Under the pieces are notes generated by a model. That model did not search any database, was not told where the DNA came from, and was given only the letters and a program-made list of their open reading frames with translations. From positions 1 to 42,733 of the IMG/VR virus record IMGVR_UViG_3300028192_000007: a stretch of DNA of 42,733 bases. One strand, 5' to 3'. The stretch is from a virus. Below, one piece after another: positions 5,790 through 27,063 of the stretch. Each line of letters starts with the position of its first letter. Position 1 is the first letter of the stretch. A program made the position numbers and the translations under genes.

Positions 5790-7124
5790 ATGGCAGATTC
5801 ACCTAAAGAAGCAGAAGCGGCTCAAGCATTGTTTTGTTCTATCGCAGATTTTGTGGGTAAAACAAATGTATCAAAAGTCCTTAACTTAAAAACTTATCCA
5901 AAGTATAAAGATTTTAAGACAAAACAAGATAAAACCATAACACCTGCTTTTGGAAAACTTAAAACTCCTGGACTTTCTTTAAAAGATATAGAGAAATTTC
6001 TGACATCAAATCAATCTTGGTATGAATCGTCTGTTATAATTGCTGTTAAACTAATTACATCTTTATCAGAAATTAATAGAAAATTTACAAAAATAGAAAA
6101 ACCAAAATGGCAAGATTTTGTTTATGTTAGAGGTGCAAAACCAGATAAAAACCGTTCTGCTAATACTATGGAAAATATAGGAGCTTTATTTAAAATTGCT
6201 AATGATAATGATAAACAATTCGGTGATGTTAATAAATGGAGTCCTGCAGATATATTTTTTGTATCAGATAAAGGAAGAGAATCAGTTAAGGAAGAATTAG
6301 ACGCATTAAATACAACAGCAACAAAAGGATCAGGAAAAGTAATTGAAAGTTATGACTTCATTGATTTAAATAAACTTGTAAATGGTTTAGTTGCTAGTGG
6401 TGATATATTACCTTTATCTTTAAAGAAAGCAGTTAAGACAGCAAGTTTATACAAATATAATTTTAATAGAAAACAAGATGAGAAAGAACTAGCAGATATT
6501 AAATATTATGGAGTGAGTGATTGGAGCACAAAATATAAAACAGGTAAAACCAGAGATATTCAAATTTATTTTAGTAAAAATAAAAATTCTAAACTTAAAA
6601 TGAGGCACGACCCACATACTAACACAATAGGTGGAGCTTCAGGAGCTAATAGAGCAATTAAAGCAGAAATAGAAATTTCTGGTTCTCCTGCTCGTGGTGG
6701 GTCAACTTCTAGTATAACTATTATAAGTAATATTTTAGCACTAGTTGATAAAAAATTATCTAAAGATTGGTTAACAGCATATGATAAAGGTATTAAAGCT
6801 TATACAATAGCAATGGCTGATTTAAATAAATCATATAACATTACGACAGGTATGAAGTCAGCTGACTTAAAAGCAAGACCAGCACCAAAAACTGGTCCAG
6901 CAAAAGGTATGAATGGCAACAAACAATATGAAGAATATAAAAAAGAAAGAATTGATTTAAGTGGTGAACATTTATTGAATGAAGTTATGCCAGTTATATA
7001 CAAGTGGTTTAAGGGTAATGAAGGTGGTAAAAGAGATAGATTAAATACTAAAGTTCTTCAAAAATTTATAGAATATGCCTCTAGTAGGTCACCTCAATCT
7101 GGTAAATTTGTAATCGCAAAGTAG
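5790..7124 (+). CDS. late-region protein of unknown function, 444 aa
   Basis: It is preceded directly by a TATAAATA late box, and no Shine-Dalgarno is seen before the ATG. The protein is soluble, rich in Lys, Ser and Asp, with no signal peptide or membrane span. Features include a central RHDPHTNTIGGASGANRAIKAEIEIS stretch rich in Gly/Ala and a C-terminal MPVIYKWFKGNEGGKRDR segment. No enzymatic motif is recognised. It begins the late virion block, so a structural or assembly role is likely (inference from context). Asp-Ala is encoded GAC-GCN where GAT-GC would otherwise form, as elsewhere in the window. Confidence 0.8.
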   Translation: MADSPKEAEAAQALFCSIADFVGKTNVSKVLNLKTYPKYKDFKTKQDKTITPAFGKLKTPGLSLKDIEKFLTSNQSWYESSVIIAVKLITSLSEINRKFTKIEKPKWQDFVYVRGAKPDKNRSANTMENIGALFKIANDNDKQFGDVNKWSPADIFFVSDKGRESVKEELDALNTTATKGSGKVIESYDFIDLNKLVNGLVASGDILPLSLKKAVKTASLYKYNFNRKQDEKELADIKYYGVSDWSTKYKTGKTRDIQIYFSKNKNSKLKMRHDPHTNTIGGASGANRAIKAEIEISGSPARGGSTSSITIISNILALVDKKLSKDWLTAYDKGIKAYTIAMADLNKSYNITTGMKSADLKARPAPKTGPAKGMNGNKQYEEYKKERIDLSGEHLLNEVMPVIYKWFKGNEGGKRDRLNTKVLQKFIEYASSRSPQSGKFVIAK

Positions 7125-11916: not shown

Positions 11917-14448
11917 ATGACAAGATACACAAAATCAATGCGAGAAGCAATGCTGGAAGTTTGGGCCAATGATATAACATTGGACGAAGGCAATATGAAG
12001 ACGATTGCCACTATGTTTGCTCAAGGTAAATCAGCAGAAGAGATAGCAGCTAAGATGACTTTGCCTGTCGCAACGGTTAAAACTATTCTTGGAGAAGATG
12101 ATGTAAAAGAGCAAATGCTGTGGGAATTCACAGACGCTCAAATTACAAAGTTAAAGAAAGATTATGCTAGTTTAAAAGGTACTAAAATTTCACTTGCGAG
12201 AGCAAACCAATTAAGAAATATCTTTGATAAAATCACAGATACACAATTACCAAAATTATACAAAGCAGATATTCCATTTCTTTCTACAATGTCATTAAGT
12301 CGTATGATTAAGAAAGGTATACAAGTACCTAAAGGTGTTAGAATTAGTGCATTTAGAGAACAGACTTGGGAAGAAATTTTAAAAGACGAAAATGCTATTG
12401 CAATTTCAGGAATAGAAACTTCAACAGAACGAACTCAATTAGATGAAAAATTCCAACCAGGATTTGCAGTTAGATATGCTTTAGATGGAAAAAGAAAAGT
12501 ACAAGCATATAAGACACAAAAGGACGCAGACCATAGAGCAAAAATATTAAAGAGTATGGGTGGTGTTAAAGATGTTTCAATTACAAAACACGATTTAAAT
12601 TTTAAAGAAGAAGATTTTAAAGTCTTTAATGAGTATGCTGAGTACATTGAATATATGGCAAAAAATTCAGGTCAAGCAAAAGCAATTGCTAATATGTTTA
12701 AAGGTAAAACTGGTGGTGGAGAATCTAAAGCAGATGGTTCAGAAGTAAGAATTGATAGTGCAAAAGATGTAGAGAATATCCACAAACAAGTTATTGCTAA
12801 GTATGGCGATGATGTAAGAGTTTTAACTAAAGAAGAATTTGAGGTTATTGCTGTAAAACCTTTTAGACTTAAAGGTAAAGATGTTAAAGTTGGTCAAAGA
12901 ATTGGTCCTAAAATGTCATACAATCAAGCGATAGCACAAGTAAAGAGAATGAATGTAGGTCAAAGTGTTGGCGGTTCAAGGGATGTTGAAGCACGAGCAG
13001 TTAGAGAAGATGTTAAAGAAACAATCCAACCATATCTGATTTCATATAGTAAGCAAGGAGACCATTATGGATTTGAAGGTGGAGATAATTTAGCAGATAT
13101 TCAAAACAAAGCACAGAAGTTACGAGCAAAAGGATTTACTATTGATAAAATGGGAAAATATAATCCACCAGTAGATAAAAAACTTATGACAGGTAAAACA
13201 GGAGTGGTTAATGATATGACACCAGCAGATTTAGACAGATTAAAGAAACAAGGATTTAAACCAAAAACTGAATCAATAGATGGCGATGTAGCACCGAAGA
13301 AAACATTTGCTGGATTTAAAAAAGAAAATTCTAAAGATAAAGAAACAGACATAGATAAAATTAAACTTGCTAAAGAAAAAGATACTGATACTTTAGACGC
13401 ACAAGTAACTACTTTAAAAGGACAACTAGGTCTTATTAAACAAAAATTAGAAATAGAAAAGAATAAAGTAGTTAAACCTGTTCCAGATAAAGAAACAGGT
13501 GAAGTTCCTTTAGCAATTGGTTTAGCACAAAAACTTTTAAGAGATAAAGCACAAAAAGAAACAAAAAAAGAATCAGTAGAAGAAGGTAAAGTAAAAGATT
13601 ATCTTATGGATGTTGAACAAGACGCTGGTGAAATGGATTTAAATAAATTAATTAGAAAGTATTATGGCACAATGGGATTAACTGCTGACGCAATTAAGAA
13701 AATATATTATAGAGTAAATGAAGATGTCAAAGTTAAATTTGCAATGAACAAAGACCAAAAGATAGCAACTGCTACTTACAAAGATAAAAAATCAGCAAAA
13801 GATTTTATTAAGTCTATACTATCAAAAGGTGGTAAAGCAATTCTAGGTGAAGCAACATTAGTTCAAAAAGCAAAAGACATTGCTAAAAAAATGGCAGATA
13901 ATTTAACTGGTGCTGTAAAAGCAATAGAAAAATTACAAAAAGGTTTATCAAAAAATTCTTCAGTAGAACAAGCATTAAAAACAGCAAACGAATCAATAAA
14001 AGAAGCAATGCCAGGTGGCGCTAATTCATCTAGTAGAAAAGGTAAAGTGTTTAGAAAATGGTTCAAAACAAAAATGAAAAAGAACTATATGAAAAAATCT
14101 GAATTTGAACCTAAAGGTAAAGATATAGAAGAAGCAAAACCTAAAAAGAAAATAGAACATAAAAATCATCCTGCTAAAAAGAAGTGGGAAGCTTTAACTG
14201 CTAAACAAAAGAAAATAGATTTAAATAAAAATGGTAAAGTAGATGGAAAAGACCTTGCTAAATTAAGAAGTAAAAAGGAAGATACAAGGGACGATAATTC
14301 AAAAACAATTTTACCAAACTATCAGGAACCTACTCAAAAAACTGACCCAATGAACATCCAAACTAAGGAACCAGAAAAGAAGAAAACTGACAATGGAACA
14401 AAGTCTGACAAAATTGATGTTAATCCTAGAATTGATTACCAAGCATAA
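11917..14448 (+). CDS. large late protein with EF-hand/dockerin-like loop, 843 aa
   Basis: It is highly charged (Lys, Glu, Asp) and Ala-rich, with long predicted helices, and has no signal peptide or membrane span. Near residue 765 it contains DLNKNGKVDGKDLAKL, a good EF-hand/dockerin calcium loop (D1, N3, N5, G6, V8, D9, D12). Several (L/I)xE-small sites occur: TLDE-G near 24, ILGE-A, and SIKE-A. They match the cleavage rule of the T4 prohead protease gp21, so a scaffold or core protein that is processed during maturation is a plausible reading (inference). An N-terminal helix-turn-helix-like segment (KSAEEIAAKMTLPVATVKTIL, residues about 36-56) is also visible. No T4 gene is assigned. Confidence 0.8.
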   Translation: MTRYTKSMREAMLEVWANDITLDEGNMKTIATMFAQGKSAEEIAAKMTLPVATVKTILGEDDVKEQMLWEFTDAQITKLKKDYASLKGTKISLARANQLRNIFDKITDTQLPKLYKADIPFLSTMSLSRMIKKGIQVPKGVRISAFREQTWEEILKDENAIAISGIETSTERTQLDEKFQPGFAVRYALDGKRKVQAYKTQKDADHRAKILKSMGGVKDVSITKHDLNFKEEDFKVFNEYAEYIEYMAKNSGQAKAIANMFKGKTGGGESKADGSEVRIDSAKDVENIHKQVIAKYGDDVRVLTKEEFEVIAVKPFRLKGKDVKVGQRIGPKMSYNQAIAQVKRMNVGQSVGGSRDVEARAVREDVKETIQPYLISYSKQGDHYGFEGGDNLADIQNKAQKLRAKGFTIDKMGKYNPPVDKKLMTGKTGVVNDMTPADLDRLKKQGFKPKTESIDGDVAPKKTFAGFKKENSKDKETDIDKIKLAKEKDTDTLDAQVTTLKGQLGLIKQKLEIEKNKVVKPVPDKETGEVPLAIGLAQKLLRDKAQKETKKESVEEGKVKDYLMDVEQDAGEMDLNKLIRKYYGTMGLTADAIKKIYYRVNEDVKVKFAMNKDQKIATATYKDKKSAKDFIKSILSKGGKAILGEATLVQKAKDIAKKMADNLTGAVKAIEKLQKGLSKNSSVEQALKTANESIKEAMPGGANSSSRKGKVFRKWFKTKMKKNYMKKSEFEPKGKDIEEAKPKKKIEHKNHPAKKKWEALTAKQKKIDLNKNGKVDGKDLAKLRSKKEDTRDDNSKTILPNYQEPTQKTDPMNIQTKEPEKKKTDNGTKSDKIDVNPRIDYQA

Positions 14449-19591: not shown

Positions 19592-20068
19592 ATGTTTGGT
19601 TATCTGAAAATGGCGATGGTTGTAGTAATGATTTCAGGACTTGCTGGTGCAGGTCTGTATGTTATGAAATTGCAAAAGGACAATGCAATTTTAAAAGCAA
19701 ATCAAATCAAATTAGAAGCAGCTGTTGACGGTCAAAAGAAAGTTATTGCTCAGCAAAAAGAAGACTTTGGTAAGATATTAGAAGCTAATAATAAGATGAA
19801 TAAACTTATGAGTAAGCTTCAAAAAGATTTAGAAGATTTAGATAAACGATTTACTAAAGGTGGAAGAGACTTTGGTCTACTTGCTTTAGAAAAGACCAAA
19901 CTAATACAAAAAATAATCAATAAAGGTAGTGATAATGTTATGCGTTGTGTAGAAATCGCAGGTGGTGCTCCTTTAACTGATAAGGAAATAAAAGCAACGA
20001 AGAAAAGTGAAATCAATAGAGAATGTCCTAGTATAGCGAACCCAAATTATGTACCGTATAGTAATTAG
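19592..20068 (+). CDS. inner-membrane spanin (Rz-like), 158 aa
   Basis: An N-terminal transmembrane segment (residues 7-26, AMVVVMISGLAGAGLYVM) is followed by a long periplasmic coiled coil (about 30-85, rich in Lys/Gln/Glu/Leu). A C-terminal globular part with two cysteines (about C117 and C145) completes it. This is the architecture of i-spanins, which span the periplasm and fuse the two membranes at the last step of lysis. The partner lipoprotein gene overlaps its 3' end by 20 bases, the classic Rz/Rz1 arrangement. Confidence 0.75.
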   Translation: MFGYLKMAMVVVMISGLAGAGLYVMKLQKDNAILKANQIKLEAAVDGQKKVIAQQKEDFGKILEANNKMNKLMSKLQKDLEDLDKRFTKGGRDFGLLALEKTKLIQKIINKGSDNVMRCVEIAGGAPLTDKEIKATKKSEINRECPSIANPNYVPYSN

Positions 20069-20408
20069 TATATTATTCATAATCCTTTTAACAGGATGCT
20101 CAAGTGTTAAAAAACTTAACATATTCACTACAGAAGTTGAAAGACAAGAACTAGGAATAGATAAACCTACTCTAGCCAAGTTAGAAAATTTAAAATGGAT
20201 TATTATAACTTCTGATAATGCAGATGAAGTATTTGCTAAACTTGTAGAACAAGGTATAGACCCAGTCTTATTTGGATTGACAGATAATGATTTTCAATTA
20301 ATTGCAAAAAACTTTGCTCAAATTAGAAACCATATGAAAGCAACAAACGATTTGATTGACGCATATAAAGAATATTATGAACCAAAGGAGAAAAACAAAA
20401 CGAAATAG
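20049..20408 (+). CDS. outer-membrane lipoprotein spanin (Rz1-like), 119 aa
   Basis: Begins MYRIVISILFIILLTGCSS. L-T-G-C is a lipobox with the acylated cysteine at residue 17, so the mature protein is an outer-membrane lipoprotein. It starts within the Rz-like gene in another frame. The rest is helical and charged and should meet the i-spanin across the periplasm. At about 100 mature residues it is longer than lambda Rz1 but within the range of T4-like o-spanins. The pairing is inferred from architecture and overlap. Confidence 0.7.
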   Translation: MYRIVISILFIILLTGCSSVKKLNIFTTEVERQELGIDKPTLAKLENLKWIIITSDNADEVFAKLVEQGIDPVLFGLTDNDFQLIAKNFAQIRNHMKATNDLIDAYKEYYEPKEKNKTK

Positions 20409-20578: not shown

Positions 20579-22234
20579 TTACTTAATTGAATAACATATA
20601 ACCTTTTCAGTCTTACCTTTTACGGTACAGGCACCAAGTTTATAGAACTTAAATCCCTTCGGTCTTTGATTTGGAAGAAAGTCTATACCATCAGCAGTAT
20701 GTTCAGATATTATAATAGTTGTGTTGAAGTCTTTACTTTTACCTTCTAACCTACTAGCAAGATTAACAGCGTCACCAATAACAGAATAATCAAACCTTTG
20801 TTCACTACCCATATTACCTACAAGACATTGACCTGTATTGATACCTATACCTATATTACAAGGTGGTTCAAACTCTCCATTCTTATTCATTTCTTTTAAT
20901 TTTCTTCTCATTTGAAACGCAGATAACACAGCAAGTCTTTGATGTTCTGGTGTATCTAATGGAGCATTCCAGAACGCCATAATACAATCGCCCATATACT
21001 TATCAATAGTACCACCATTTTTTAATATTATATCAGTCATTGCAGTAAGAAATCTATTAACATACTTGGTAAGTTTTTCTGGATTACCTTTCATAGATTC
21101 TGATATAGGAGTGAAACCTCTAATGTCTGAAAATAAAAATGTTAATTCTTTTCTTTCTCCACCTAGTTTTAATAGTGATGGATTCTTTTGTAGTTTCTTA
21201 ACCATTGCAGGTGCTAGATAATGTTCAAATTGTTTTTTGATTTGTAGTTTTAATTTATTTTCTCTAATAAAATTATTATATATTAAATGACCAAATAATA
21301 AAGTAATTATAACAAGTGGACTAAACCAATCAACTAAAAATAAGTGTTTTGTCCATAGATAAGAACTTAAAAAAGATAAGTCTCCCAAGTATCCACCAAA
21401 CCATATCGCAGACCACATTATACCACATCTAGGTATAACTACAAGAAAGAATATAGCACTTAATATTATAAAAGTAAATTCAGCATATGGTAACCAATAA
21501 GGTCTACTGATAAACTTACCTGATAATAAAGTTTCTGTACCAACTGCCATAATTTCGTGTGTGTTTTTTATTCCATCAGGAGTTGTTGCAAAAGTAGAAC
21601 CTTTAAATGTTGTACCTATGAAAACTACTTTACCTTTCATAGATGACCAATCTCTATCAGTATAATCTATTCTAGGAATATGATGTCTGAAATCTAACCA
21701 AATTAAATCTTTAGCTTCAGTTGGCATTTTAAAAATTTTTAAGATAACTTCTGGTATAGATTTTTCAAGTGGTAGTTTTCTTATAGTGCCATCTATATCA
21801 ACAGGCACAGATACATTACCTATTGCTAATGCTTTTCTAGCAATACTAACAAGATTTTTAACTTCATTTGTTTCGGTTAATATGATAGGATATTTGGCAA
21901 TCATTTTCAAAAACATTTCATCACCACCTAATCTATCTTTATGTGGGAAGACTACTTGTAAGACTACTAGAGCGGCACCATTTTTATACGCATTGATTAT
22001 AGTACGACCAAGTAAATCTCTCTTCCACGGCCATTGTCCGTTCTTTGTAAGTGCCTTGTCAGATATATCCAATAGGACTAGACTTTTGGAATCTAAATGA
22101 GTCCCAAATTTTTGGTAGGTATCAAAGGTTGCTAGTCTGGTTGATTGCAATAGAACAGGATTTACGAAGTAAATTCCTAGTAGAATAATAAAGGTCAGAT
22201 AAGCTGCCCATTTTGTTGTAAATATTTTGTTCAT
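20579..22234 (-). CDS. CHASE2-domain class III adenylyl cyclase
   Basis: The only minus-strand gene. It is read from ATG 22234 because GAGAGG lies just before it; an in-frame ATG at 22246 would add four residues but includes that ribosome site. TM1 spans about residues 8-25 and an extracytoplasmic CHASE2-type sensor about 30-245. Two or three TM helices (about 250-320) and a linker follow, and the catalytic domain covers 360-551. Catalytic residues are complete: metal Asp in FSDIRGF (D370) and YMGD (D416), purine-selecting K412 and D482, N491 and R495. Lys/Asp selects ATP, so the expected product is cAMP. CHASE2 cyclases sense periplasmic or membrane signals and often lie near FecR-domain genes in bacteria. 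The gene faces a CsgF/CsgG/curlin/FecR operon across a 53-base gap. A bacterial origin is likely. Confidence 0.92.
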   Translation of the reverse strand: MNKIFTTKWAAYLTFIILLGIYFVNPVLLQSTRLATFDTYQKFGTHLDSKSLVLLDISDKALTKNGQWPWKRDLLGRTIINAYKNGAALVVLQVVFPHKDRLGGDEMFLKMIAKYPIILTETNEVKNLVSIARKALAIGNVSVPVDIDGTIRKLPLEKSIPEVILKIFKMPTEAKDLIWLDFRHHIPRIDYTDRDWSSMKGKVVFIGTTFKGSTFATTPDGIKNTHEIMAVGTETLLSGKFISRPYWLPYAEFTFIILSAIFFLVVIPRCGIMWSAIWFGGYLGDLSFLSSYLWTKHLFLVDWFSPLVIITLLFGHLIYNNFIRENKLKLQIKKQFEHYLAPAMVKKLQKNPSLLKLGGERKELTFLFSDIRGFTPISESMKGNPEKLTKYVNRFLTAMTDIILKNGGTIDKYMGDCIMAFWNAPLDTPEHQRLAVLSAFQMRRKLKEMNKNGEFEPPCNIGIGINTGQCLVGNMGSEQRFDYSVIGDAVNLASRLEGKSKDFNTTIIISEHTADGIDFLPNQRPKGFKFYKLGACTVKGKTEKVICYSIK

Positions 22235-22287
22235 ATCACCTCTCATTGTTTATTTATTATAAATATTACTGATTATTTAGGAGAGAT
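22235..22287. promoter_or_regulatory. divergent intergenic region of the cyclase and curli-like operon
   Basis: On the plus strand a perfect TATAAATA late box (22258-22265) lies 22 bases before the CsgF start, with AGGAGAG as ribosome site. On the minus strand TATAAT (22261-22256) overlaps that box and could serve the cyclase, with no good -35 in front. The two transcription units therefore share one compact control region. Confidence 0.6.
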
Positions 22288-22752
22288 ATGAGATTAATTA
22301 TAACTATTTTACTAACATTATTGTTTACTTCTAGTGCTTACTCAAGCGAATTTATCTTTAAATTTGATAGTCCTTCATTTACAGGCGAAGGAAAATCATC
22401 ACACTATCTAACGATAGAGAATATTGAGAAGACTAGAAAGGATGCTATTAAAGCTGCTAATAAAGCAGCCGCAGATAAAGTAATCGCAGACGCAAAGGCA
22501 ACAGCGATAGCAAAATTCAAAGCAAATTTAGAAGCAAGATTTTATACTGCTTTAGCTAAACAAGTTACTGACAATGTATTTGGTACAGATGGATTACAAC
22601 AAGACTCTGGAACATTTACATCACCAGTTGGTGGTGAAGTGATAACTTGGACTACTACAACAACAGGTACAAATGATACCGTTACCGTAGTAGTTACAGA
22701 AACAGATGGTACGGTTACTACATTTACTATGCCTAAAGAAGATAACTCATAG
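22288..22752 (+). CDS. csgF: CsgF-like curli assembly protein
   Basis: A 154-residue exported protein. The signal peptide is MRLIITILLTLLFTSSAYS with cleavage after about residue 19. The mature N-terminus, EFIFKFDSPSFTGEG, matches the CsgF start (F.F.NPSFGGNP), the part that inserts in the CsgG pore. An Ala/Lys-rich helix follows at about 48-95. A C-terminal beta part with many Thr (VTVVVTETDGTVTTFTM) corresponds to the CsgF C-terminal strands. The Ala/Lys helix is longer than in Escherichia coli CsgF (138 aa). It is directly upstream of csgG, as in bacterial curli loci. CsgF normally couples secretion through CsgG to surface nucleation. Confidence 0.75.
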   Translation: MRLIITILLTLLFTSSAYSSEFIFKFDSPSFTGEGKSSHYLTIENIEKTRKDAIKAANKAAADKVIADAKATAIAKFKANLEARFYTALAKQVTDNVFGTDGLQQDSGTFTSPVGGEVITWTTTTTGTNDTVTVVVTETDGTVTTFTMPKEDNS

Positions 22753-22759
22753 GAGAAAT

Positions 22760-23878
22760 ATGTTTAGAACTATTGGGATATTTTTATTGACATTGTTTTT
22801 AGCTAGTTGTGCAGGTAGACCAGATTTTGATGTAAAAACTCAATCCGTATCTTATAAAAGTTTAACGGAAATTAATTCACCAAAAGGTGACGCAATTGTA
22901 ATTGCGGTGTATGACTTTGTTGATATGACAGGTCAAAAGAAACCAGGTGGTAATTTTGCGTCAATGAGTACAGCAGTAACGCAAGGCTCATATCAGATTT
23001 TAATTAAAGCATTACAAGACGCAGGTGAAGGCAAATGGTTTAGAGTTGTTGAAAGAGCAAGTCTACCAAGTTTATTACAAGAACGAAAACTAATCCGTTC
23101 TACAAGACAACAGATTAATGGAGAAGGTGCAGAACCTTTACCACCATTGTTATTTGCTGGTGCATATATCACAGGTGGTATTATAGGATATGATAGTGAT
23201 ACTAAATCAGGTGGTGTTGGTGCTAGAATTTTAGGAATACAAGCACATAAACAATACCGACAAGATATAGTTACTATTATTTTAAGATTAGTTAATGTAC
23301 AAACAGGTGAAGTTGTAGTTACTACAACGGTTGAAAAGACTATATTTTCTGGTGAAACTGGTGGCGATATATTTAAATACCTAGATACAGATACAATGTT
23401 AGTAGAGATTGAAGTAGGATTTGCTAGAAACGAACCAGTAACTTATGCAGTAAGAAAAGCAATAGAAAAAGGTGTAGTTGATTTAATTAATCAAGGCGCT
23501 GAAAAAGGACTATGGGAGATTTCAATACCTGAACCAGTAGTTATTAAAGAAGAAAAAAAAGAAGAAGTAGATAAGGCTGGAGAAGAAGTAATTAAAACAC
23601 CTATCAAGGTAGATGTAGGTAAAGAAAAAGTAGAGAAAACATACGAAGAATTTTTAGAAGAAAAAGAAGCCCAAAAAGAAGAACGCAAAAAGATGATACA
23701 GATGACAGCGGAGTGTGAGAAAGACGCTAACGCTACAGGAAAAGTATCTGAAAAGTGTACAGAATTAATTGATGAAAAAGATTGGGCAGATGTAGAAAAA
23801 GCAACAGAAACAGAGGAGAATAATGCTGATGAAGAAGTTAATGATGGCGATAGTGATTCTTCTAGCGACACTAACTAA
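22760..23878 (+). CDS. csgG: CsgG, curli secretion-channel lipoprotein with acidic C-terminal extension
   Basis: ATG 22760 is chosen for the AGGAGA in front of it and because it opens the signal peptide. The lipobox is L-A-S-C with C17 acylated. The CsgG family is clear from YDFVDMTGQKKP, GKWFRVVERASLPSLLQERKLIR, GGIIGYDSDTKSGGVGARILGI and GEVVVTTTVEKTIFS, ending near residue 258 with EKGLWEI. CsgG forms a nonameric outer-membrane pore that exports unfolded curli subunits. E. coli CsgG is 277 residues. Here about 115 extra residues, rich in Glu, Lys and Asp with two or three Cys, follow the channel domain. This tail is unusual and would lie on the periplasmic side. The 3' end overlaps the curlin-like gene by 56 bases. 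Confidence 0.95.
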   Translation: MFRTIGIFLLTLFLASCAGRPDFDVKTQSVSYKSLTEINSPKGDAIVIAVYDFVDMTGQKKPGGNFASMSTAVTQGSYQILIKALQDAGEGKWFRVVERASLPSLLQERKLIRSTRQQINGEGAEPLPPLLFAGAYITGGIIGYDSDTKSGGVGARILGIQAHKQYRQDIVTIILRLVNVQTGEVVVTTTVEKTIFSGETGGDIFKYLDTDTMLVEIEVGFARNEPVTYAVRKAIEKGVVDLINQGAEKGLWEISIPEPVVIKEEKKEEVDKAGEEVIKTPIKVDVGKEKVEKTYEEFLEEKEAQKEERKKMIQMTAECEKDANATGKVSEKCTELIDEKDWADVEKATETEENNADEEVNDGDSDSSSDTN

Positions 23879-24929
23879 TAGTTTCGCTGGTAATTCTGTT
23901 TATATCCAACAAGACAACCAAGACAGCGATGGTTCTATCTTTATAAAACAAGATGGTTCTGGAAACACGGTAGGTTACAGCACATCATATCCATTTAAAA
24001 TCAATGGAGAGAATATCACAATCATTATAAATCAGATTGGTACTAGTAATGTATCAGATTATTCTAGTCATCAACACTTTTATGGTGATGATATGACCTT
24101 TGATTATAAAGCAACTGGTAGTTCTAATAAATTAAGAATAGGTATAGATGATACAGGTGCTGATGGTCATTATTATGACATAGATATTACAGGTGATTCA
24201 AATGTAGTAGACTTTGATACTTGGGCAGATGATGTACAAAAAGCCAATGTTGATTTAGATATTACTGGTGACTCAAATACATTTTGGGTTCGTAGTAGAG
24301 GCGATAATCACTTCTGGTATGTTCTTATGTCAGGTGATTCAAATGATGTACAAATTTATACCACAACAGATTCAGTAGGGTTTAATACAAACTCTAACAA
24401 AGCAATTGGTCCACAATCAACATCACACGGACAATTTGCAGATAGTTCAGGTAGTGAAGGTGCAAGTGCAGACATTTATATTATTGGTAACTCTAATAGA
24501 TTACACACTTCATCATACGGTACAGGTAACTATCAACTCCACGATATTATAGGTAATTCAAACATTTTAGATATCCATTCCAGTTATACTAGTGTTGATA
24601 CTGACCCATATGGAGATACAATGACAATATTAGGTGATAACAATTATTTGAGAACATACATATCTGGCGATAGTAATACAATCAGATTACATATGGCAGG
24701 TGGAAGTAATACTGCTAAAATTTATCTTTATACAGATAGCTCAGTAATAAACTTTGCTCAAACAGGTGGTAGTAATTATGGTTATGTAAAAGTAACAGGT
24801 GATTCAATTTATGATTACACATTAAACTATTCACAAACTGGTAGCAATGGCAATTCTAGTTGTATGTACACTTACAATAGAAACACCCAAACAGGTGATG
24901 TAACTGATACGCAAACAAACCCTTGTTAA
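23823..24929 (+). CDS. curlin-like secreted repeat protein, 368 aa
   Basis: GAGGAGAATAATG gives the start. The signal peptide MLMKKLMMAIVILLATLTNSFA is followed by mature GNSVYIQQDN. The body consists of about a dozen degenerate repeats with the turn motif (I/M/V/Q)xG(D/N/G)SN followed by a beta strand: ITGDSNVVDF, ITGDSNTFWV, MSGDSNDVQI, IIGNSNILDI, ISGDSNTIRL, QTGGSNYGYV. Curlin subunits have comparable GxxN-turn repeats with Gln/Asn ladders, so a beta-solenoid or amyloid-like fold is likely. The gene overlaps csgG, making it the expected substrate of the pore. Length and repeat sequence differ from E. coli CsgA (151 aa), so the relation is by pattern and context rather than close homology. 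Confidence 0.7.
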   Translation: MLMKKLMMAIVILLATLTNSFAGNSVYIQQDNQDSDGSIFIKQDGSGNTVGYSTSYPFKINGENITIIINQIGTSNVSDYSSHQHFYGDDMTFDYKATGSSNKLRIGIDDTGADGHYYDIDITGDSNVVDFDTWADDVQKANVDLDITGDSNTFWVRSRGDNHFWYVLMSGDSNDVQIYTTTDSVGFNTNSNKAIGPQSTSHGQFADSSGSEGASADIYIIGNSNRLHTSSYGTGNYQLHDIIGNSNILDIHSSYTSVDTDPYGDTMTILGDNNYLRTYISGDSNTIRLHMAGGSNTAKIYLYTDSSVINFAQTGGSNYGYVKVTGDSIYDYTLNYSQTGSNGNSSCMYTYNRNTQTGDVTDTQTNPC

Positions 24930-24930
24930 A

Positions 24931-27063
24931 ATGCGTAAAATATTTCTCTCATTAATCTTTTTCTTTCTTTTCTGTACTAGTGCATTGGCCGTAAGCGTAG
25001 GTGAGGTTATTGGTTCAATGGGTACTACTTGGAATGAAAGAGACGGTCAAACTGAAAAGACTTCCGCAGGTTACAAATTAGAAATGCTTGATTTTCTCCA
25101 AACTGGAGAAGATGGTGGTATGATTTTATTTTATAAAGATAAAACTAAATTTACAATGGGTCCAAATACAGAATTAATTATAGATGAATTTGCTTTTGAT
25201 ACTTCTGTTATACCAATAGAACTTGCAATGATGATTTCTGTTAATGTTGGTTCATTTACATATGAATCAGGACAAGTATCCACTTTAGGTGGTGATGTTA
25301 ATATCAATGCTGGTAATGCTACAATTACGGTACAAGGTACTGCCTTTTCAGGAACGGTAACAACTTCAGGTCAAACAACAATTACTTTACTACCAGATAG
25401 TCAAGGTAATGTAGGTCAGGTAACCGTATCTAATGACGCAGGTTCTCAAACAATAACTAATGCTTACTATTCAGTAACCGTTATGTCAAATGATTTAACA
25501 CCAACACCTCCAAAAATAGAAACAAACAAACAGGACATTATTAAGTTAAATGAATACGAAGAAGATATAAAAGACGAAGTTGAAAAAACTTTTGGAGATG
25601 TAGAGAAAAAATCTGAAATGTCTAAAGATGAACAAGAAGCACAGGAAATGGAAGAGGCGATAATAAGTGAAGAAGCAAATATTGTAGAGAATAGTGATAC
25701 GATTGTTGGTACAGATTTATCTTCTAGTGAAGCAGATACAATGATTGAAACAAAATCAGCAGAAGAAAATACTTTAGTTGAAGTAGAAGAAGTTGATACT
25801 TCTTATTATGATGAGTGGGAAGATGATTTAAAAGATTGGGGTTATATAGATGAAGATAACCAGATTTCAGTATGGGATGCCGAAGGCGAAACTAAAATGG
25901 ATTGGGATGACGCAAAGAAAATGTATGCAGAAATGGACCAAGCATACTTTGACGCTATTGGTTGTTCAGATTGTAGTTGGGATTCTATTGATTGGGATTC
26001 TATTGATTGGGACGAAGTAGATTGGGATGCTTATTATGATGAGTATAATGACACGCTAGAAAAATATGGATTAACTTCTTATGATGTAAAAGACGAAGAT
26101 ATAACTGGAGATGTTGAAGAAGAAGCAACAGAAGTAGAAGTAGTTGAAGGTTATACTTGGGAAGACTTTGCTTTAGATGATGACTACTATAATAATAACG
26201 AATACAAAAACGCAGGTGGTCCTCCAACATTAACTATACAAAACTATTGTGAATATAATAGTTATGATACCTCTTGGTGTACACAAGATTATGTTGATTG
26301 GTTAAACGACTGGTATGGAAATGATTGGACTTTAAAAGTAACCAATGATAGTTGGACTACAGAATCTAAAAGTATTTTTGGTAAACTATATGGTTGGTGT
26401 GGAAGTTATCCTAATTATAAAATGTGTGATAACCAACCTAAACCTTGGAAGATGAAAGACTTAAAGGCAAAGTATATAGCAGATTGGGAGTGGGTTGATT
26501 ACTCAACATATTGGGACGCAGTATACGATTGGTGGTATACAGGTTATGATTATAATAATGAATCAGATGAACTTACTTTAGAAGAAGAATATGGTTTTGA
26601 AGATGACTATGATATAGACGCAGAATTAGTAATATTATTAGCAAGTTATGATGAAGCTGATTGTTTAAATTATGGATACTATTGGGACAATGCTAATGCT
26701 AGTTGTGGAACTGAATGGGTTGACAATACTGGAACAGATAGTGTAACAGCAAGTGGAGAAACTTTAAATTATTCTACAGGAGATGTAACTCAAACCTTAA
26801 CTTCATCAAGCTTAGGTGTGTCAACAAGTACTACTTCAACAGGAAGAGTATCAACATTAAATAATGACTTTGACGCTTCAGTTGATACTTCCGTCAGTAA
26901 CTATTCAATTATAAATAGATATAACGATAGTCACCGAGCATATATTAAAACTCAAACTGCTAAAGAAGCAGATATACAGATTTTACAAGATATGGAAGCT
27001 CAACACATTGATATAGGCAGTAGTTCTAGCCAAAATAATATTACTATCATACAAACGGATTAA
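24931..27063 (+). CDS. large exported FecR-domain protein, 710 aa
   Basis: The signal peptide MRKIFLSLIFFFLFCTSALA is followed by a FecR-type domain (about 25-150: VGEVIGSMGTTW, LQTGEDGGMILFYKDKTKFTMGPNTELIIDEF, NVGSFTYESGQ, ITVQGTAFSGTV). The remaining ~550 residues are extremely acidic and rich in Trp, Tyr and Asp. They include tandem D-S-I-D-W units at about 350-365, encoded by a 15-base direct repeat, and two cysteine-containing Trp/Tyr-rich segments. A Ser/Thr-rich C-terminal part follows. The gene starts two bases after the curlin-like stop. Bacterial FecR-domain proteins of this kind often sit beside CHASE2 cyclases. This one may be a surface or periplasmic partner of the cassette (inference). 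Confidence 0.8.
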   Translation: MRKIFLSLIFFFLFCTSALAVSVGEVIGSMGTTWNERDGQTEKTSAGYKLEMLDFLQTGEDGGMILFYKDKTKFTMGPNTELIIDEFAFDTSVIPIELAMMISVNVGSFTYESGQVSTLGGDVNINAGNATITVQGTAFSGTVTTSGQTTITLLPDSQGNVGQVTVSNDAGSQTITNAYYSVTVMSNDLTPTPPKIETNKQDIIKLNEYEEDIKDEVEKTFGDVEKKSEMSKDEQEAQEMEEAIISEEANIVENSDTIVGTDLSSSEADTMIETKSAEENTLVEVEEVDTSYYDEWEDDLKDWGYIDEDNQISVWDAEGETKMDWDDAKKMYAEMDQAYFDAIGCSDCSWDSIDWDSIDWDEVDWDAYYDEYNDTLEKYGLTSYDVKDEDITGDVEEEATEVEVVEGYTWEDFALDDDYYNNNEYKNAGGPPTLTIQNYCEYNSYDTSWCTQDYVDWLNDWYGNDWTLKVTNDSWTTESKSIFGKLYGWCGSYPNYKMCDNQPKPWKMKDLKAKYIADWEWVDYSTYWDAVYDWWYTGYDYNNESDELTLEEEYGFEDDYDIDAELVILLASYDEADCLNYGYYWDNANASCGTEWVDNTGTDSVTASGETLNYSTGDVTQTLTSSSLGVSTSTTSTGRVSTLNNDFDASVDTSVSNYSIINRYNDSHRAYIKTQTAKEADIQILQDMEAQHIDIGSSSSQNNITIIQTD
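25981..26010 (+). repeat. tandem 15-base repeat encoding D-S-I-D-W
   Basis: Two exact copies of GATTCTATTGATTGG (25981-25995 and 25996-26010) inside the FecR-domain gene, followed by degenerate D-E-V-D-W and D-A-Y-Y units. In-frame expansion by slippage or recombination is the simplest origin. Confidence 0.9.

Follow-up and report, generated by a model that had tools for sequence, protein, structure and literature searches.

A FecR-domain protein and a CHASE2 adenylyl cyclase as a possible sense-and-secrete core of phage curli and type I secretion cassettes

Background

The earliest report of a curli operon in phages is that of Zaragoza-Solas et al. 2020 (PMC7029224). In the passages searched here, Wittmers et al. 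2022 (PMC9599517) describe a type VIII secretion system (T8SS) module of pelagiphages, both podo- and myophages, that includes a FecR-domain protein and an adenylyl cyclase (AC), and Buchholz et al. 2022 (PMC9004378), who also treat the curli genes, propose a lysis role for phage Melnitz. Known since 2020-2022, this module has no agreed function, and its FecR and AC components had been filed as regulators. We analysed IMG/VR virus record IMGVR_UViG_3300028192_000007, a fragment of 42,733 bases (hereafter the window), in which a cassette at 20579-27063 encodes a CHASE2-domain class III AC together with CsgF-like, CsgG, curlin-like and FecR-domain proteins (Table 1). Its main interest lies in the evidence from its relatives, where a FecR and CHASE2-cyclase core appears to be common to two unrelated secretion systems. 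We propose a surface-display cassette in which the cyclase reads the FecR cargo, a model that, taken as a whole, we hold at a probability of about 0.45.

Results

The five open reading frames (ORFs) that an initial annotation of the window had assigned to the cassette are confirmed, with the Pfam and PHROG identities listed in Table 1, and the cassette is almost certainly a phage T8SS module, a variant of the published kind as judged from its genes. The csgF, csgG, curlin and FecR genes stand in the published module order, and the AC gene adjoins them on the opposite strand. Adjacent operon genes overlap or almost touch (csgF/csgG, csgG/curlin and curlin/FecR), as in a translationally coupled operon. 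We read gene order in 109 IMG/VR loci; the locus scans keep the best 80 matches, and the counts from them are not population frequencies. CsgG was present in 46 of the 47 judgeable cyclase-seeded viral loci and a cyclase in all 18 judgeable CsgG-seeded ones, so the block that the initial annotation had recognised recurs in related phages. Its view that no described phage system joins a cyclase to curli genes does not hold: the phages HTVC008M and Melnitz have the block, and the module is described in the searched passages of PMC9599517. Purifying selection acts on each of the five genes (dN/dS 0.11-0.36), and because this holds for every gene of a block that is recurrent in related viral loci, the association is not a chance one.

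Table 1. Positions of the cassette genes and other features in the window
Feature	Position	Strand	Evidence or remark
CHASE2-domain class III adenylyl cyclase	20579..22246	-	Pfam CHASE2 1.3e-24, Guanylate_cyc 1e-22; catalytic residues; hydropathy
CsgF-like protein, 154 aa	22288..22752	+	Pfam CsgF 3.5e-12; PHROG 35372 1.6e-33
CsgG outer-membrane secretion pore, lipoprotein	22706..23878	+	Pfam CsgG 1.7e-50; alignment; tail composition
Curlin-like repeat protein, 368 aa with leader	23823..24929	+	structural and profile matches
FecR-domain protein, 710 aa	24931..27063	+	Pfam FecR 0.0074; PHROG 37870 1.5e-20
Divergent late-promoter candidates	22251..22265	+ and -	TATAAATA on + at 22258-22265 (csgF operon), overlapping AATAAATA on - at 22258-22251 (cyclase)
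Overlapping Rz/Rz1-type spanin genes	19592-20068 and 20049-20408		directly upstream of cassette; PHROG 739 and 812
Acidic, Lys/Glu-rich CsgG tail	23530-23878	+	C-terminal, about 110 aa
Large ORFs (444 and 843 aa)	5790-7124 and 11917-14448		no PHROG match at 1e-5

The initial annotation had held that a cyclase and curli genes occurring independently, with no conserved linkage, would speak against a joint system. AC does occur without curli genes in the clade of the phage contig L043, but there it is kept with the same FecR and with a type I secretion system (T1SS). Positions 2528-11941 of L043 encode a FecR-cadherin protein (1299 aa), a TolC-type channel, an ABC membrane protein, HlyD and a CHASE2 cyclase. 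All five genes are found in nine distinct contigs (L043, L237, L242, L252, L262, L270, L277, L281 and L295), and HlyD lies directly before AC in all 22 contigs of the T1SS clade with at least 1.3 kb of upstream sequence. The TolC and HlyD components of L281 match NCBIfam TIGR01844 (4e-36) and TIGR01843 (6e-45), and TIGR03375 was also assigned. The ABC gene encodes only the membrane part, of about 250-270 aa, with no recognisable ATPase in its ORF (L281 8501-9310, L043 8212-8964); that of L281 (270 aa) covers profile positions 129-301 of 696 and is not a permease with its ATPase. A T1SS cassette with a cyclase was found in no phage record in INPHARED and nowhere in our literature search, and the type I form of the FecR and CHASE2-AC cassette appears to be undescribed.

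The FecR domain of the T1SS proteins is homologous to that of the T8SS proteins (E 1e-57 to 1e-71). A hydrophobic leader is present in 30 of the 32 T8SS FecR proteins and in none of the seven T1SS ones. Serralysins are classic type I substrates, and a serralysin match was found near the C-terminus of two of the six T1SS cargoes scanned (L242 and L277, 1.2e-17 and 7e-14). Since the leader is absent from the T1SS proteins and two of them have a serralysin-like C-terminus, these comparisons show that the predicted leader of FecR differs between the two export machines, as does the FecR C-terminus in some members.

In the AC tree, the type I cyclases are monophyletic (support 100), sister to the window clade (support 98) and nested within the phage T8SS cyclases. 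The FecR-domain tree places the T1SS forms as the AC tree does (support 94), and both trees carry long-branch warnings. In two contigs (L260 1-10533 and L294 3-7840), a T1SS cassette adjoins a T8SS cassette, and each of the two has a CHASE2 AC of its own. The 148-kb type I contig L252 encodes a phage DNA polymerase, a clamp loader, PhoH and NrdAB and has no HTVC008M-like structural genes; its polymerase is nearest to that of the giant Sinorhizobium phage Phosso, at about 50%. Because the trees agree, and given the two-cassette contigs and the gene content of L252, we infer that the FecR and AC pair has passed between phages of quite different kinds as well as from one secretion system to another. 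That the pair also travels with a different export machine suggests that the cyclase watches an exported partner rather than curli. With FecR and AC constant while the secretion machine, the FecR leader and some FecR C-termini change, it becomes testable whether FecR is a cargo and the cyclase its sensor. In its general form, the proposal is that FecR and the CHASE2 cyclase constitute a portable sense-and-secrete core in which the cyclase monitors export of a dedicated surface protein, and that two unrelated secretion systems have been combined with this core (T8SS in T4-like phages and T1SS in other large phages), sometimes with both in one phage and one cyclase for each; we regard this as a little short of an even bet. 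Another contig (L007/L283) has two cyclases beside csgF/csgG.

The architecture of the window FecR protein bears on its role. The Pfam match falls below the cut-off for the window protein, but of 22 relatives 15 match FecR, the best at 3.6e-8. The protein has a Sec-type leader, which by hydropathy is its sole hydrophobic segment, a FecR domain at about 20-190, a predicted helical middle part that is acidic and rich in Trp, and a C-terminal beta region at 604-708, for which the model of the window-clade protein has evenly spaced strands with good local confidence; the structure model has no structural match above Z 3.4, an absence from which nothing can be concluded. The chain terminates in NNITIIQTD, a curlin-type strand. 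A terminal hydrophobic-x-hydrophobic-x-Q strand, like the last strand of phage curlins, is found in 64 of the 67 distinct module FecR proteins, in 35 of 3471 other ORFs and in none of 27 FecR-domain proteins of curli-bearing alphaproteobacteria outside such operons.

If, as Wittmers et al. propose in the passages searched, AC and FecR served to switch on the phage curli genes through cyclic AMP (cAMP) and iron signalling, in the way that cAMP feeds curli control in gammaproteobacteria, then the constant linkage of the genes and the intact catalytic site of the cyclase (see below) would be as observed. A FecR-type transmembrane regulator, on the other hand, would have a cytoplasmic anti-sigma domain, a mid-chain transmembrane segment and a partner sigma factor. 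Pfam scans of the window protein and its relatives found no anti-sigma domain, no sigma-factor gene was found among the gene neighbours, and the protein, which lacks a second membrane segment, starts with a Sec leader and finishes in a curlin-type strand. The near absence of CRP-type receptors from SAR11-family genomes, their absence from the phage records searched, the late phage promoter motif that the operon carries for itself and the persistence of the FecR and AC pair without curli also speak against such a switch, which we consider unlikely. As far as the searched passages of PMC9599517 go, FecR is assigned as an iron regulator by its domain name, an assignment to which the architecture lends no support. 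Judged on its predicted architecture, FecR is probably a secreted cargo and not a regulator.

AC is inverted and placed ahead of csgF in the window and in 18 other cyclases of one clade, and this inversion and relocation has a single origin on the AC tree, nested in co-directional relatives (support 92). Among the best 80 CsgG loci of bacterial genomes, the majority lack AC and FecR, and the full block with both is confined to phage-like contigs and two loci in metagenome-assembled genomes (MAGs) of uncultured Caulobacteraceae. The latter (L119 9444-15539 and L144 8307-14367) carry a complete csgF-csgG-curlin-curlin-FecR-cyclase operon between bacterial flanks (cytochrome, acyl-CoA dehydrogenase and amidohydrolase genes), and we therefore rejected the notion that the full block is phage-only. 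On gene content and flanks these loci are a possible cellular source of the block, and the bacterial pattern is in line with the alphaproteobacterial source assumed in the literature. As the initial annotation had stated, CHASE2 cyclases neighbour FecR genes in bacteria: a CHASE2-profile neighbour was found at at least 6 of 30 FecR loci of curli-bearing alphaproteobacteria. Eight further contigs filed under bacterial genome bins (L113, L114, L115, L120, L141, L147, L157 and L163) hold phage-type curli modules; L141 (142 kb), with UvsX and DnaB next to the module, is clearly phage, and the remaining seven look misbinned.

The bacterial-flanked operons make it plausible that the whole block came from bacteria, and AC and FecR might then stand beside curli genes only through descent from one captured operon, with no shared job. 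Such hitch-hiking would leave unexplained that AC was relocated and inverted yet is still adjacent, that FecR remains paired with AC in phages that use another secretion system and that the two-cassette phages keep two ACs. We consider it very improbable.

Translation of AC from the second ATG (22231-22233 region, MNKIF) gives a protein of 551 aa, and from the first ATG one of 555 aa. Hydropathy places transmembrane segments near 11-29, 255-273 and 300-318, with the cyclase domain cytoplasmic. Class III cyclases require two metal-binding Asp residues, a Lys/Asp pair for adenine and an Asn/Arg pair for the transition state. The window AC has D370, K412, D416, D482, N491 and R495, and the numbering in the initial annotation is correct if taken from the second ATG. 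These six residues are conserved in 85-86 of 86 phage homologues and invariant in all 65 ACs of the search for type I sister forms; the predicted class III active site is intact. The 53-base gap between AC and csgF on opposite strands likewise stands from the second ATG and shrinks to 41 bases from the first.

No Pfam family reaches the cut-off for the curlin-like ORF, where Curlin_rpt stands at 0.58 against 3e-7 in the best relative. Its structure was modelled from 24 relatives (pLDDT 70, pTM 0.73), and the model has the solved CsgA 8c50_A as its top structural match (Z 24.0, root mean square deviation 8.9 Å over 275 residues, VIA-align), the next-ranked match being a polysaccharide lyase solenoid (Z 15.9). 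Foldseek against the Protein Data Bank (PDB) gave no significant match for the curlin-like or the FecR model, and the sole PDB match of the curlin family profile is the major curlin subunit 8enq (E 0.0033). In hhalign the window protein aligns with phage curlins at 99.5-99.6% and with the HTVC008M-type CsgB-like family at 99.6% probability, and a C-terminal Cys pair links it with the second curlin of the HTVC008M-type module. On the model and these profiles, the repeat protein is a curlin-like beta-solenoid with the CsgA fold. The curlin-type exported protein of the initial annotation is supported in its fold, the export itself being predicted.

In CsgG, Cys35 is nearly invariant in the alignment, and the true start is probably Met19 (base 22760). 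CsgG of the window clade has an extra C-terminal tail (Table 1) that is absent in HTVC008M CsgG (280 aa).

In line with the late operon of the initial annotation, TATAAATA, which is the late promoter motif of T4-type phages, precedes the csgF start by 22 bases. Counted from the alignment, TATAAATA upstream of csgF is retained in 15 of 20 divergent relatives, with CATAAATA in four more; the plus-strand motif also precedes csgF in most co-directional members of the clade, and the minus-strand motif is less conserved. In HTVC008M, which encodes a late sigma factor and co-activator, TATAAATA lies 13 bases ahead of csgF, as it does ahead of the genes for gp25 and the DNA end protector; the portal, sheath and one wedge gene are preceded by it too. 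A placement test in that phage found the motif at 5 of 26 structural starts, as against csgF and one other among 27 comparison genes. The raw count of TATAAATA was dropped as evidence, being below chance (5 in the window, 10.9 expected), as was its strand bias, which is compositional. The motif and its placement suggest that the csgF operon is likely expressed late.

Late expression would also suit a role in lysis. Following the proposal made for Melnitz in PMC9004378, CsgG, with CsgF, might serve as a gated pore of the outer membrane or in the manner of a pinholin, and the cyclase might help to time release, and the window cassette does lie directly after an Rz/Rz1 spanin pair. This adjacency is kept in the window clade but not in HTVC008M, and the module lies elsewhere in both HTVC008M and Melnitz; we rejected it as a sign of a lysis role for being clade-specific. 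Moreover, CsgG is an outer-membrane-type lipoprotein and not an inner-membrane holin, and neither the curlin and FecR cargoes nor the type I alternative would be explained. We regard a lysis function as improbable, slightly more so than the regulatory switch above.

Late expression and surface export also fit superinfection exclusion or a change of the host coat, one option given in the searched passages of PMC9599517, in which the exported fibre would mask receptors and the cyclase would be a periplasmic alarm for secretion stress. Both secretion routes appear to deliver large repetitive or adhesin-like proteins (a cadherin domain is present in the FecR protein of L043). Late timing would be less useful for early exclusion. 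It is the least unlikely of the alternatives, at low odds nonetheless.

The G+C content of the window is 31%. Its UvsX is 71% identical to that of Melnitz and 68.5% to that of HTVC008M, its primase is 62.9% identical to that of Pelagibacter phage Mosig, and a DnaB-like helicase and NrdA/NrdB are also encoded; on these characters the phage is a member of the T4-like marine myophages. Two long contigs from the window clade, of 177 and 171 kb, encode a major capsid protein 76-77% identical to that of HTVC008M; the HTVC008M protein was used as query after a Pfam search for gp23 proved uninformative, its positive control giving no match. A tRNA-Gly tried as host marker does not fix the host, its similarity to SAR11-family genomes being at most 74%. 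The two large ORFs without a PHROG match (Table 1) lie elsewhere in the window.

Discussion

We propose that, late in infection, the CsgF/CsgG pore would export the curlin-like repeat protein and the FecR-domain protein, and that FecR, through its curlin-type terminal strand, would be carried by, cap or nucleate a surface fibre. The inner-membrane cyclase would be the cognate sensor, its periplasmic CHASE2 domain reading FecR, for instance by telling exported FecR from FecR that is free or stalled in the periplasm, and the cytoplasmic domain would make cAMP when the cyclase is activated by unexported FecR. The export machine would be exchangeable, curli T8SS in the window and type I secretion in other phages. 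The fibre would most likely serve to hold sibling cells or virions together or to block competing phages. Contact between FecR and CHASE2, export of FecR, activation of the cyclase by unexported FecR, a target of cAMP and a benefit of the fibre are the steps that we infer.

Several observations weigh against this proposal. Comparing the whole FecR C-terminal region with curlins by profile gave no significant result; the claim of a curlin-type tail therefore rests on the terminal strand motif, whose count with controls replaced that comparison. Four of the six T1SS cargoes scanned have no serralysin match, which limits the C-terminal exchange to a subset. CsgE, the usual gate of curli secretion, is absent from the eight related phage records searched (an E. 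coli control was positive), and none was recognised among the ORFs scanned in the window, itself a fragment. No clumping was observed in Melnitz cultures (PMC9004378). The cultured relative Mosig has no match to AC or CsgG yet infects SAR11, which indicates that the cassette is dispensable.

The cAMP signal itself raises a further difficulty. A cyclic nucleotide-binding domain was found in none of nine records searched (eight module-bearing phages and one Pelagibacter MAG) and in 9 of 147 SAR11-family genomes, three of these in CRP-sized or smaller frames. The 147 genomes are those of the family of the Pelagibacter MAG and are mostly incomplete; only two of them have a class III cyclase above the cut-off, both on contigs that also bear the curli module. 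Predicted CRP-type cAMP receptors and indigenous class III cyclases are thus almost missing from the SAR11-family genomes sampled. If the host is SAR11-like, the phage AC would supply a signal that such a host does not normally produce itself or sense through CRP. It is a puzzle that an intact cyclase is brought into hosts seemingly without the usual cAMP receptor.

Compared with the T8SS module of Wittmers et al., as described in the passages searched, the window cassette shares CsgF, CsgG, curlin, FecR and a CHASE2-type cyclase in one block, the lack of CsgE and CsgD, the occurrence in marine phages and the movement of the module between phage groups. It differs in the inverted AC ahead of csgF, which is not mentioned in those passages, in its single curlin gene and in a FecR protein that has a helical insert and is 710 aa long, against about 370 aa in that module, which makes it twice as long as in HTVC008M. 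The podovirus modules are preceded by kinases, whereas no histidine kinase gene was recognised beside the window cassette, and FecR, an iron regulator in that description, is here read as a cargo. No publication combining FecR domain, curli and CsgG was found in our literature search.

The cultured phages HTVC008M (KC465899) and Melnitz (MZ577097) have the same genes, with AC 34% and 31% and CsgG 52% and 46% identical to those of the window, and HTVC008M shares TATAAATA before csgF. In contrast to the window, both carry them co-directionally as csgF-csgG-curlin-FecR-curlin-AC on one strand and at another genome location. With E. coli curli (csgBAC/csgDEFG) the cassette shares the CsgG pore, CsgF and a curlin-repeat protein with the CsgA fold, a subunit assignment made here through fold and profile and with amyloid predicted only; it lacks CsgE, CsgD and CsgC and has AC and FecR in addition. 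Bacterial pairs of CHASE2 cyclase and FecR have the same cyclase-FecR neighbourhood but, in the FecR proteins tested (0/27), no curlin-type end. The linkage of a cyclase with a curli operon in phages is therefore not new; the reading of FecR as cargo, the near absence of CRP-type receptors and own class III cyclases from the sampled SAR11-family genomes, and the exchange of the curli machine for type I secretion go beyond the literature searched.

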